Positions 24,866 to 34,712 of a stretch of 38,321 nucleotides of DNA are shown here, piece by piece. The stretch is taken from the NCBI GenBank assembly GCA_007117135.1, contig SKHB01000111.1, positions 1-38,321 on the forward strand, written 5' to 3'. A program made the translations under genes and the position numbers. The notes below the pieces were generated by a model. That model worked only from the letters and a program-made list of their open reading frames with translations, was not told the DNA's origin and did no database searches. The stretch comes from Microbacteriaceae bacterium (lineage in GTDB: Bacteria; Actinomycetota; Actinomycetes; Actinomycetales; Microbacteriaceae). Every line of letters begins with the position of its first letter. Position 1 is the first letter of the stretch.

Positions 24866-25093
24866 ATGGATGCCCTCACTGCACTACTCCCGGATTTTTT
24901 TCAAACACTCCTCGGATCAGTAGTTTTGTTGACCGTGATTTTGTGGTCGACAGTCTGGAAACTTTTGGCGCTCTATCGAACCGCTTCGCGTCGGCACAAA
25001 GTGTGGTTTGTTGTGCTGTTTTTTGTGAACACTGCAGGCATTTTGGAAATTATTTACCTGGTGCTCAACCGAAGCAAACCACGTCGCGCTTAG
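24866..25093 (+). CDS. DUF5652-type two-span membrane protein
   Basis: This 75-residue protein has two hydrophobic segments (about 14-33 and 44-66), the basic link YRTASRRHK and the basic tail NRSKPRRA. The pattern LWKLLALYRTASRRHKVWFVVLFFVNTAGILEIIYL matches the DUF5652 family, related to the PLDc_N membrane anchor. The function is unknown. Both termini are probably on the same side of the membrane. The leaderless start is supported by TAGGCT 6 nt upstream. The stop overlaps the end of the convergent TDT transporter gene by 4 bp. Confidence 0.8.
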   Translation: MDALTALLPDFFQTLLGSVVLLTVILWSTVWKLLALYRTASRRHKVWFVVLFFVNTAGILEIIYLVLNRSKPRRA

Positions 25094-26133
25094 CGCTGAA
25101 AGACAGCACCGGAGCGAACACCCCTCACCGTCTTCCCTGTCAGCCACACGAGAAGAACACCCAGCGATAGCCAGAGGATGGCGCCGAAGACGGACAGGGC
25201 CGCAAAGTCGTGTCTTCTTGCCACCTCGAGGCTTAGCGAAGCAAATGCTGCTGTCGGGAAGCCGAAAGCCCAGTAGCCGAGGTGAAAGTGCGCTGCCGCG
25301 CGGGAGCGAATAATCACAATGAGGGCAAACACTGCCCACCAGGCCGAAAAACCCCACACGGCGAGGATCAGCCACTCGGCGACCGCAATGGACGCCGTAT
25401 CGCCTATCAGGGTTGCACCAGAGACCATGCCGAGGCCTCCGGCACCAAGGGGCGCGAGCCATGCCCACCAACTGGGGAGGGCGTGAGGCGGCAGGGGTTC
25501 GGCCAGGAGGAGTCTTCCGCCAATGATGGCGGCTAACAGCATGAACAGTCCGAAACCGATTCCCCAGGCGGCAACGCCCAACCAGGTGAGTAGTGCATCG
25601 GGCAGTGGGGAGTCGAGGTTTTTCAGCCGGACACTAATGCTCGGGACGAGGACGAGCGGCACGACGGGAACAAACCAGCTTGCTGAGATGGCTGCGGGGG
25701 GAATCTGTTCGAGGCCAATCACCCGAGCGAAGAAGGCAAACCCAATAAGCGCTGTCCCCACCAGTCCGAGACCACCGACCACCATCGCCGGCCACAGGGC
25801 AAGTCCCGGGCTCAACACGCCCGACGTTGCCGCCTGGCTGGTGGCAAGGGCCGTGATGAGCAGTGAGGCCGGCCAGGCGGCTGTTTGGGAACCCATGCCG
25901 GGGTGTCGAAGGTCAGCAAGGAAGCTGTCAGTGTGCCACACGAGTTTGATGCCGTAAAGGACGGTGATGGTGAGTGCGGTGAGGCCGGAGAGTGCGAGAA
26001 AGACCAAACCAATGGTGTCGTCCAGCTGAGAACCTGGAAGCGGGTCAAGAAGACTGACCATGGACGCCCCTGCGACACTCATCGCAAGAGCCCCCCATGC
26101 GGGGTGAAGGGTGGCGATACGTGACTCTGTCAT
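25090..26133 (-). CDS. TDT/SLAC1-family transporter (tellurite/dicarboxylate/sulfite exporter class)
   Basis: This 347-residue protein has about ten membrane segments. The C-terminal motif FHLGYWAFGFPTAAFA matches the SLAC1/TehA/Mae1/Ssu1 family pattern (WW.FTFP..AFA). The family moves anions such as malate, chloride, nitrate or sulfite. The operator-like palindrome at its promoter is of the CsoR/CstR type, which would favour a sulfite or sulfur-stress exporter (compare Ssu1), though this remains inference. ATG 26133 lies exactly 6 nt after a TATAGT -10 box, so the transcript should be leaderless. The CPBP protease gene ends 27 bp upstream. Confidence 0.85.
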   Translation of the reverse strand: MTESRIATLHPAWGALAMSVAGASMVSLLDPLPGSQLDDTIGLVFLALSGLTALTITVLYGIKLVWHTDSFLADLRHPGMGSQTAAWPASLLITALATSQAATSGVLSPGLALWPAMVVGGLGLVGTALIGFAFFARVIGLEQIPPAAISASWFVPVVPLVLVPSISVRLKNLDSPLPDALLTWLGVAAWGIGFGLFMLLAAIIGGRLLLAEPLPPHALPSWWAWLAPLGAGGLGMVSGATLIGDTASIAVAEWLILAVWGFSAWWAVFALIVIIRSRAAAHFHLGYWAFGFPTAAFASLSLEVARRHDFAALSVFGAILWLSLGVLLVWLTGKTVRGVRSGAVFQR

Positions 26134-26139
26134 CCCCCC

Positions 26140-26145
26140 ACTATA
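26140..26145 (-). promoter_or_regulatory. -10 box of the TDT transporter (leaderless)
   Basis: TATAGT on the minus strand is followed by GGGGGG and ATG 26133. It is a near-perfect -10 hexamer. Its first three bases lie inside the adjacent palindrome. Confidence 0.6.
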
Positions 26146-26160
26146 TACCCCCGGGGGTAT
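26145..26160. promoter_or_regulatory. CsoR/CstR-like operator palindrome
   Basis: ATACCCCCGGGGGTAT is a perfect 16-bp palindrome. It overlaps the TDT -10 box and would cover the -10/-35 spacer, the expected position for a repressor site. CsoR-family repressors (Cu(I)-sensing CsoR, persulfide-sensing CstR) bind G-tract palindromes of the TAC(C)n...(G)nGTA form. No such regulator is encoded in this window. Confidence 0.6.
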
Positions 26161-27114
26161 TTAGGGCGCGGTGGTCATGGGGTCAGCCGGCGCGAAGGCG
26201 GGAGCCTTTTTTGGCCGAGGCGGACGCTTTTCGTGCCCCCAACGGGACACCAAAATAAACACCGGAATCAAGATTGCCGTCACAACAATGTTCCCCACAC
26301 CAAGCTCAGCCGAGTCGGTGACAAAAAGGGCTTCCGCGGGAAGAGCGCCCCCCTCGTACCCGGCAACCAAAGACAGGAACAAGTTATGGGCGGCGTGCGC
26401 GCCGATCGCAATCTCAATAGAACGGTCTCGAACACTCACCCACCCCCACACAAACCCCACTGAGGCATAGGTAATGAAAGCCAAGACCGGCTGGCTAAGA
26501 GCCTCCGGGTTTGCCATATGGGGCAGCGCGAAAACAACCCCACTGAGCGTCGACAGAATCCAGATGCTCGAAGTACCTCGGCTAAACCATTGCAGCAACC
26601 ATCCGCGGAAAAATACTTCCTCCGCCGTTGTTTGAACCGGAATCAGCAGAAGGGTGATGATCGCGAAGGGGATAAATGCGGTGGCTTGGAAGTTCCACTC
26701 ATAACCGTTCTCGGCAGGAAAAGCCAATAAGAAAAAAATCGACGGGCCCAACATGACCAACAACCAGGTGAAAAACCCCCACCACACGCGGCGCATCCGA
26801 AACCGCACCCCCACAGCAAACAACTCTCCTGCGGGACGGCCAAGAATAAACCGGTAGGTAAGAATGGTGCCCGCAAGCAGGGGAATGAAACTTACCAGCG
26901 CGAAAAGCATGAACCCCCACCCGGGGAACGCCCCAAACAGGTCCCCCTCAACAAAAAGTGCGATGACATCAACGCCGGTGAAGGGAATCACCACCAGACT
27001 CAAAATGGTCCCCAGGACAGCCCAAGCAAACAGGATTGCCAGCGTTCCCACCAAGAACCGCCACCACATCACACGACCAGGTGGGGTAAAGCGAAGGCCA
27101 AGCGGGTAAGACAT
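26161..27114 (-). CDS. CPBP-family intramembrane metalloprotease
   Basis: This 317-residue protein has about eight membrane segments and the CPBP (Abi) motifs: TTAEEVFFRGWLLQW (EExxxR), then VVFALPHMAN (FxxxH) and HAAHNLFLSL (HxxxN). These form the membrane-buried active site of Rce1-like proteases. Bacterial members process CAAX-like or peptide substrates or give bacteriocin self-immunity; no partner gene is visible. ATG 27114 has a GACAAT box 6 nt upstream, which fits a leaderless start weakly. The longer frame to 27162 is less likely. It is divergent from the galactokinase-like gene. Confidence 0.85.
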   Translation of the reverse strand: MSYPLGLRFTPPGRVMWWRFLVGTLAILFAWAVLGTILSLVVIPFTGVDVIALFVEGDLFGAFPGWGFMLFALVSFIPLLAGTILTYRFILGRPAGELFAVGVRFRMRRVWWGFFTWLLVMLGPSIFFLLAFPAENGYEWNFQATAFIPFAIITLLLIPVQTTAEEVFFRGWLLQWFSRGTSSIWILSTLSGVVFALPHMANPEALSQPVLAFITYASVGFVWGWVSVRDRSIEIAIGAHAAHNLFLSLVAGYEGGALPAEALFVTDSAELGVGNIVVTAILIPVFILVSRWGHEKRPPRPKKAPAFAPADPMTTAP

Positions 27115-27215
27115 GGCGGCATTGTCCCGCACTCGCCTGAGTGCTCCATCACAGCGTGTCACCCCGCCGTCACAGAAATAGGGAACAATGGAGCGTTGGC
27201 GTGAATGGAGACTTT

Positions 27216-32281: not shown

Positions 32282-32887
32282 TTACCGTCGCTCGTCAATG
32301 TTCCGCCGGCCAGCAAACGCCCGCGACAAAGTAATTTCGTCAGCGTATTCGAGGTCTCCGCCGACCGGCAGGCCGCTGGCAAGCCTCGATACCGTTAACC
32401 CCGGCTGAATAAGCAGCCTGGACAGGTAACTCGAAGTTGCCTCACCCTCCAAGTTGGGGTCAGTCGCAAGAATGACCTCTTTCACCACACCCGAACCGAG
32501 CCGCCCGAGGAGCTCACGGATACGCAAATCATCGGGCCCTATTCCGTCAATGGGGCTGAGTGCCCCGCCAAGAACGTGGTAGCGGCCGCGAAATTCTCGA
32601 GTTCGCTCAATAGCGACCACATCTTTCGGCTCCTCCACCACACACAAGACACTGTCGTCACGTCTCGGGTCAGAACACAACCCGCAAGTCTCTTGGGCAG
32701 AAATCATCCCGCACACCTCACAAAACCGAATACTCCCGCGAATCTCGCCCAAAATCTCCCCCAAGCGGCTGGGGTCATAAGTTTTGGATTGAACAATATA
32801 AAAGGCGATACGTTGGGCAGACTTTGGTCCAACGCCCGGGAGTTTGGCGAGCTCATCGATGAGCTCGGCAATAATCCCCTCATACAT
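32282..32887 (-). CDS. recR: Recombination protein RecR
   Basis: This is a 201-residue protein. A helix-hairpin-helix ([21 protein letters not shown]) is followed by a C4 zinc finger ([16 protein letters not shown]) and a Toprim domain with [14 protein letters not shown] and [15 protein letters not shown]. RecR acts with RecF and RecO to load RecA at gaps during repair. ATG 32887 overlaps the dnaX stop by 8 nt, so the two are co-translated. The ybaB gene that often sits between dnaX and recR is absent here. Confidence 0.95.
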
Positions 32888-34712
32888 CCGAATCTCCCGA
32901 CGATTCCTGCTCTAACAGTTCTTCGGCAATCAGTTCGCCGCCAAGAATGGTTCGAATAGCGGGCTCACCCCGTTGTCCGAGAACGGAACCACTGGCAGGG
33001 GTGTCTGTCGGCTCTGCCGATTTCTCACTGTCGGTCTGATCAGTTGGTTGCGGGGTGTGGGTGGCCTCCGGTTCGACGGTGAGGTCTTCACCGTCCGCTT
33101 CAGAACCGGGTGATGCCACCACCGGCCACGAGGATTCGGGGCTCTCGCCAGCGGGAGAAACGGCTCCCGCCGGCAACTCCCCGACGGTGAAACGGACACG
33201 GTGACCGGTGTGCTGAAAGATGGCGTCACGCAAAAGGTCAGCGTTTGGCAGTGGGCTTCCAGGGCCTTGCGGTTTGCGCAAAATCTCTGCATCCTGCCGC
33301 TTTGCAAAACCGATGGTGACAACATCGCTGTCAACAGCAACGGGGAGTGTTTCAGACAGTGCCGCCCACAGGGACCTCTTGGTTTCGGCCAAAGATTCGA
33401 TAACCGCCGGCCATTTCTGAAGCAACCCCGCCACATCCCACGGGGACATAGGTGGAATGGTTTCTCCAGCAGCGCTCGGCTCTGGTTCAGTCGGCTCCTG
33501 CGACGACTCCTGGACGGGGGCTGATGGTGCGGGGGGTTCCGATGGGGGGGCTGATGGTGCGGAGCCGCTCGTCAGGGCTGTGTTTGCTTGTACTGGCGGC
33601 GGAGCACCATCGGCCACCAGGGTCAGCACTTTCGCCATCATCACTTCCAGATGAAGCTTCGGTGAGGTCACACCAGCCATTTGGCTCAGAGTTTGGCTTG
33701 TAATGTCAGCAATTTTTGTGAGCTGCTGGGGGGTAAATAGTTCTGCTTGACCGTGCAGACGGGAAACTTCGTGGCTGGGCACACCAGGAAACAGCGACGA
33801 ATCTTCAGCGCCGGCAGCGCCGGCGACAATGAGGTCTCTGATGTGTGACAAGAAGTCTTCAACAAACCGTCTCGGGTCACCACCGGAATGAACAACACCA
33901 TCGATGTGTTGGAAAAGGTCAGCCGCCCGGTTTTCAGTTATCGCCAGAGTGACATCGTCCAACACCTGGGTGGAGGTGTAGCCGAGGAGTGTCCGGGCGT
34001 CGTGCAAGGTCAGAGCGTCCCCGGTGCTTCCGGCCATCAGCTGGTCAAGCAGTGACAACGAATCCCTCACCGACCCCCCGCCTGCCCGCACCACCAGTGC
34101 CAACACTCCGTCTTCGGCGCCGAGTCCTTCGGTGTCAAGCACTGACTGCAGGTAGGCAATGAGTTCGGCCGGTGCCACCAAACGGAAGGGATAGTGGTGG
34201 GTGCGAGAGCGGATGGTGGTGAGAACCTTATCCGGCTCTGTGGTGGCAAAGATGAACTTGATGTGCTCGGGAGGTTCTTCAACGATTTTCAGCAGGGCGT
34301 TGAATCCCTGCTGGGTAACCATATGTGCCTCGTCGAGGATGAAAATCTTGTAACGGTCGCGAGATGGCGCGAAAACGGCGCGCTCCCGAAGCTCTCGGGC
34401 ATCTTCAACACCGTTATGGCTGGCGGCGTCGATTTCAACAACGTCTAAAGAGCCTCCGCCATCGCGCGAGAGTTCTACACAACTGGGGCACTCACCGCAT
34501 GGGGTGTCGGTGGGGCCCTGGTGACAGTTCAAACAGCGGGCAAGAATTCGCGCCGACGTTGTCTTCCCGCAGCCACGGGGGCCGCTGAACAAATACGCAT
34601 GGTGGGTGCGATCTGACGACAAAGCTTGGCGGAGCGGATCGGTGACCTGGGTTTGACCAATCAGCTCAGCAAAGTTTTCTGGTCGGTAGCGACGGTACAG
34701 TGCAGAGCCCAC
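32880..34712 (-). CDS. dnaX: DNA polymerase III subunit gamma/tau
   Basis: This is a 610-residue clamp-loader subunit. Walker A is [13 protein letters not shown] (about 44-56). A zinc module follows with [19 protein letters not shown], then DEAHMV (Walker B), sensor-1 FATTEPDKV and the sensor-2 region. The C-terminal half (about 375 on) is Pro/Ser/Glu-rich and carries a tau-like tail ([26 protein letters not shown]). GTG 34712 starts 9 nt after the ackA stop. I looked for but did not confirm a programmed frameshift site for a short gamma form. Confidence 0.95.

Follow-up and report, generated by a model that had tools for sequence, protein, structure and literature searches.

A TDT/SLAC1-family gene that begins 11 bp after an exact palindrome raises the question of what the palindrome does, and of which signal and substrate belong to the transporter. 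The locus lies in a stretch of 38,321 bp (the window, meaning the whole of the DNA analyzed) from a Microbacteriaceae draft genome. Sequence comparison makes it highly probable that a CstR-type persulfide-sensing repressor, whose gene lies outside the window, uses the palindrome as its operator and serves a scattered sulfur regulon in which the TDT protein is a likely sulfite exporter. The features concerned are these:

25090 to 26133, minus strand: gene for a TDT/SLAC1-family anion channel or exporter, 347 aa (Pfam SLAC1, E=2e-39; AlphaFold fold match)
26140 to 26145, minus strand: TATAGT, predicted -10 element, with its first base common to the operator (from the sequence and similar sibling sites)
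26145 to 26160, no strand assigned: palindrome ATACCCCCGGGGGTAT, exact over 16 bp, predicted CstR-type operator of the form ATACC-n6-GGTAT (from the sequence and the published ScCsoR operator)
26161 to 27162, minus strand: gene for a CPBP (Rce1-like) intramembrane protease, the upstream neighbor, whose stop codon abuts the operator (sequence and domain search)

Read on the minus strand, the order is the protease TAA (26163-26161), ATACCCCCGGGGGTAT (26160-26145), ATAGTGGGGGG, and the ATG at 26133. The original prediction described a flawless 16-bp palindrome sharing bases with the TATAGT -10 box and lying 12 bp before the ATG; the palindrome is indeed exact (the span of 26140-26160 first given for it also takes in the -10), the sharing amounts to the single base 26145, and the ATG is where it was placed, but the gap counts 11 bp. 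Six G residues separate TATAGT from the ATG, so transcription of the TDT gene would plausibly begin at or next to the ATG, a predicted leaderless start. A sequence scan found no -35 match before the gene.

Perfect 16-bp palindromes of any sequence are expected about 0.7 times per 38-kb window and three are present, so palindromicity by itself is weak evidence; the sequence itself is the signal. The ATACCCCNNGGGGTAT occurs four times in the 1.71-Mb draft genome against 0.007 expected, the ATACCNNNNNNGGTAT has five copies with none of the reversed pattern, and a search for the full 16-mer with up to three mismatches returns the ATACCCCCGGGGGTAT site as the sole match in the window. Each of the four strict sites stands at a gene start, the genes coding for a thioredoxin, a YgaP-like transmembrane protein, a rhodanese lipoprotein, and the TDT protein. 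A fifth, weaker ATACC-n6-GGTAT match, ATACCATCCAGGGTAT at G000:C62:31567-31582 (L202), is without the full G/C tract, and the one-mismatch sites inspected in the window genome (L006 and L007) have no gene start tied to them. The window also contains a 20-bp perfect palindrome, CGAGCTCATCGATGAGCTCG (32848-32867), near the start of a gene at 32282-32887 (minus strand) and just outside the end of another at 32880-34712 (minus strand).

Conservation in relatives, on which the original prediction hinged, extends across the genus: all 19 of its genomes have two to five strict sites, and the reversed-pattern control is zero in 40/40 genomes searched. The recurrent targets are genes for thioredoxin (18 genomes), rhodanese (15), a DUF4395 protein (8, by Pfam), and YgaP-like proteins (3); CoA-disulfide-reductase-like genes are also fronted by sites. 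At many thioredoxin sites and at 7/7 tabulated DUF4395 sites, a TATAGT/TATACT-like -10 has the final three operator bases as its own first three, whereas for most rhodanese sites it is found further downstream, beginning four bases past the operator. In the 99% complete, single-contig genome G004, the site ATACCCCAGGGGGTAT lies at a similar distance (12 bp) before the start of a TDT gene, though the flanking bases differ; the TDT protein is 61% identical, and a CPBP protease gene is likewise upstream.

A further operator target, in ∼12 genomes of the genus, is a Cys-rich protein of 47 to 51 aa with the pattern CSPxxCxxCxKxTWxGCGxH...CxC (for example, L076:558-710, minus strand, and those in L026, L069, and L074), for which no Pfam or NCBIfam match was found. 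Its gene is also an operator target in G033, G034, G036, and G583, and the copy of the window genome (G000:C3:1-117, L177) sits at a contig edge. This small protein is a new candidate for persulfide or sulfane-sulfur handling.

The motif equals the published 16-bp ATACC-n6-GGTAT operator of the S. coelicolor persulfide sensor ScCsoR. Sulfane sulfur persulfidates Cys37 of ScCsoR, upon which the repressor leaves the promoters of a persulfide dioxygenase gene, TauE (the proposed sulfite exporter), a rhodanese gene, and its own gene (PMC7533328). The present system resembles that of ScCsoR (SCO0620; PMC7533328) in its 16-bp operator, two-Cys DUF156 repressor, and rhodanese and exporter targets, as well as in probable self-regulation, seen here in a reductase-cstR operon of relatives. 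It differs in that ScCsoR serves one cluster with persulfide dioxygenase and TauE, whereas here there are scattered single promoters, the exporter is of the TDT/SLAC1 family, and thioredoxin and YgaP-like genes are among the targets. The S. aureus CstR/cst operon (PMC5480029) likewise combines a CstR-type regulator with sulfur-handling targets, including the tauE exporter, but CstR there likely controls a single operon directly, compared with at least four separate loci here. Thermus TTHA1953 (PMC10318464) is similarly a Cys-based CsoR-family repressor acting on distant sulfur genes, thioredoxin included, although its operator, TACNNTACNNNNGTANNGTA, is without the G/C tract.

In the proposed switch, the reduced repressor bound to ATACC-n6-GGTAT would cover the space upstream of the -10 together with its first base, and would so block RNA polymerase. 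A build-up of persulfide or polysulfide would modify the conserved Cys pair and release the repressor, turning on together the scattered thioredoxin, rhodanese, YgaP-like membrane protein, and TDT exporter genes; in relatives the regulon would add the operon of the CoA-disulfide-reductase-like/rhodanese protein and cstR, the DUF4395 protein, and the small Cys-rich protein. The TDT protein would most likely export sulfite or a similar sulfur oxyanion that arises during sulfane-sulfur removal, a role which in S. coelicolor has been proposed for TauE.

The family assignment of the transporter in the original prediction agrees with both the Pfam SLAC1 domain and the predicted structure. The AlphaFold model (pLDDT 77, pTM 0.80, from an alignment of 21 sequences) finds its best fold matches in TehA/SLAC1 structures, with TM scores of 0.68/0.76, and no PDB sequence match was found. 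The modeled SLAC1 fold settles the fold and leaves the substrate unfixed, and the resemblance to Ssu1-type sulfite exporters is at the family level only; anion (sulfite) export is the probable function. That the operator is of CstR type and the substrate is something else (thiosulfate, tellurite/selenite, or a dicarboxylate) is a real possibility, though an unlikely one. The TDT family takes in tellurite-resistance and dicarboxylate transporters (TIGR00816), sulfite, selenite, and tellurite all modify S. aureus CstR (PMC5016687), and in yeast there is a link between the sulfite pump and efflux of selenium (PMC10269739). However, the genes coregulated with the TDT gene code for sulfane-sulfur enzymes, the known partner exporter of CstR and ScCsoR is TauE, proposed for sulfite or sulfonate/thiosulfate, and the TDT protein scores 95.9 with TIGR00816, far below the cutoff of 237.

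Sulfite export by the TDT protein need not be the only route in the genus. TauE-family genes are present in 15 of the 19 genomes, and ATACC-n6-GGTAT is absent from all 20 TauE loci inspected, on which ground TauE was rejected as the exporter under operator control in this genus. For the window genome and G004, the exporter gene found with the operator is that of the TDT protein; these are the only two of the 19 genomes with a TDT gene, which makes the exporter an accessory target of the regulon.

The window carries no regulator gene, and the original prediction expected one to act from elsewhere. A genome search located a single DUF156 gene, truncated at the edge of contig C64, whose C-terminal fragment keeps both Cys positions; in an alignment with 43 others, Ala replaces the His at C-4. 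All DUF156 proteins of the genus keep the two Cys positions and have no His four residues before the second Cys, where CsoR-type proteins carry one. S. aureus CstR, which served as the seed of the search and as one row of the alignment, is a reference point only, the Cys/His comparison itself using genome sequences. Wherever a DUF156 gene was detected in the genus, it is of the CstR type only, and none of the genomes, G004 included, yielded a CsoR-type gene. By its signature of a Cys pair with no copper-site His, the CstR type is the only kind of DUF156 regulator found in the genus.

Site and regulator also occur together across genomes. Among 40 genomes, of which 18 are of the same genus and not independent, the strict site is present in 24 of the 27 that have a CstR-type gene and in one of the other 13; this exception, G009, is a draft of 84% completeness that gave no DUF156 match. 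Counted by genus (22 genera), the figures are 7/10 with a CstR-type gene and 0/12 without (one-sided Fisher P ∼0.0007, computed by hand). Two sites outside the genus, L036:1501-1516 and L116:1434-1449 (in G025 and G036), overlap the 5′ part of tRNA-Gln genes and were set aside as motif false positives; excluding G025 leaves 6 of 10 genera (P ∼0.003).

The original prediction also proposed looking for the palindrome near DUF156 genes, and it is present in the cstR region of G004 and of five other genomes. In G004, cstR (protein of 120 aa) starts within the last bases of a gene for a reductase whose C-terminal part is rhodanese-like; by sequence this reductase is of the CoA-disulfide-reductase type, like its Pfam-tested homologue in G026, and the site ATACCC(T/C)..GGGTAT is just upstream of this reductase gene. 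A similar site is upstream of cstR in G007, G010, G013, G016, and G017, where the intervening gene is unannotated. Given these sites, the CstR-type regulator is probably autoregulated, by analogy with ScCsoR. When the reductase gene was sought in the window genome, distant relatives alone turned up, and the gene probably lies in the missing part beyond the contig end.

The original prediction left sulfur and copper control side by side, and only the first is supported. M. tuberculosis CsoR senses Cu(I) through a Cys-His-Cys site, of which the His is missing in the present regulator (Ala at C-4 in the window genome, and no His there genus-wide), and an equivalent of the CsoR copper operon was rejected on this point. 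There is likeness in other respects: the regulators belong to the same fold family, the M. tuberculosis operator also overlaps promoter elements, and operators of the CsoR family share the general G-tract layout of the site (PMC10318464). Copper control, in which a CsoR-type Cu(I) sensor would bind the site and the TDT gene would belong to a copper response, is nevertheless very improbable: the detectable DUF156 genes of the genus, that of G004 included, are all CstR-type, genera having CsoR-type proteins only are without the palindrome, and no copper gene is among the recognized site targets. Sulfur control is favored over copper by the regulator without the copper His, the lack of a CsoR-type gene, and the sulfur-gene targets; as in a persulfide regulon, ATACC-n6-GGTAT at the promoter, a DUF156 protein that has the Cys pair but not the copper His, and sulfur-handling cotargets are found together. 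It is also very improbable that the palindrome, which abuts the protease stop codon and belongs to a class that is not rare in the window, is a terminator of the protease gene or a chance GC palindrome, a reading rejected since the palindrome has no loop and no T-run, a terminator scan found none here, and copies of the sequence stand at the promoters of other, unrelated genes genus-wide, with a control of zero.

The predicted operator has counterparts outside the genus. Among 70 SLAC1 loci sampled across the class, ATACC-n6-GGTAT is present in five, 36 to 68 bp before the SLAC1 match, and all five belong to one other family (f51). In the SLAC1 protein tree, the two palindrome-bearing groups fall in separate well-supported clades, forcing at least two changes. 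No DUF156 gene was found within ∼10 kb around each of the five f51 TDT genes, and no palindromes precede distant TDT relatives of sulfate reducers and haloarchaea in 20 loci. The related genome G583 (family f54) has a TDT protein of 40% identity, but there the site precedes the gene of the small Cys-rich protein, ∼3.5 kb from the TDT gene. A wider proposal, put forward tentatively and at somewhat less than even probability, is that, in two or more lineages of the class, a TDT/SLAC1 channel replaced TauE as the sulfite exporter inducible by reactive sulfur and came under CstR-type control more than once, within a scattered regulon in which the 47- to 51-residue Cys-rich protein may carry persulfide or act as its sink.

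The operator and regulator are of an already known kind, and the TDT target and the makeup of the scattered regulon appear to be new; a literature search with few subscription papers in its scope found no CstR-controlled TDT/SLAC1 gene. The operator would give a physiological signal and a likely substrate class to a functionally unassigned bacterial TDT/SLAC1 branch, and would outline a compact persulfide regulon in a genus of small genomes. With the site also before TDT genes in a second family, sulfite export by this TDT branch is directly testable.

Two neighborhoods outside the genus have additional features. In G026, the same palindrome (L012, 1501) is just before a TsoY-family gene (L012:261-1484, minus strand; NCBIfam, 1.8e-123), possibly another sulfur-related membrane protein under the same control; TsoY was rejected as a TDT homologue, as there is no profile similarity. 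In the f51 loci L275 and L277, the operator-bearing TDT gene is followed by a gene for a PLP-dependent decarboxylase (PF00282), and TetR-like and S51 peptidase genes are on its other side.
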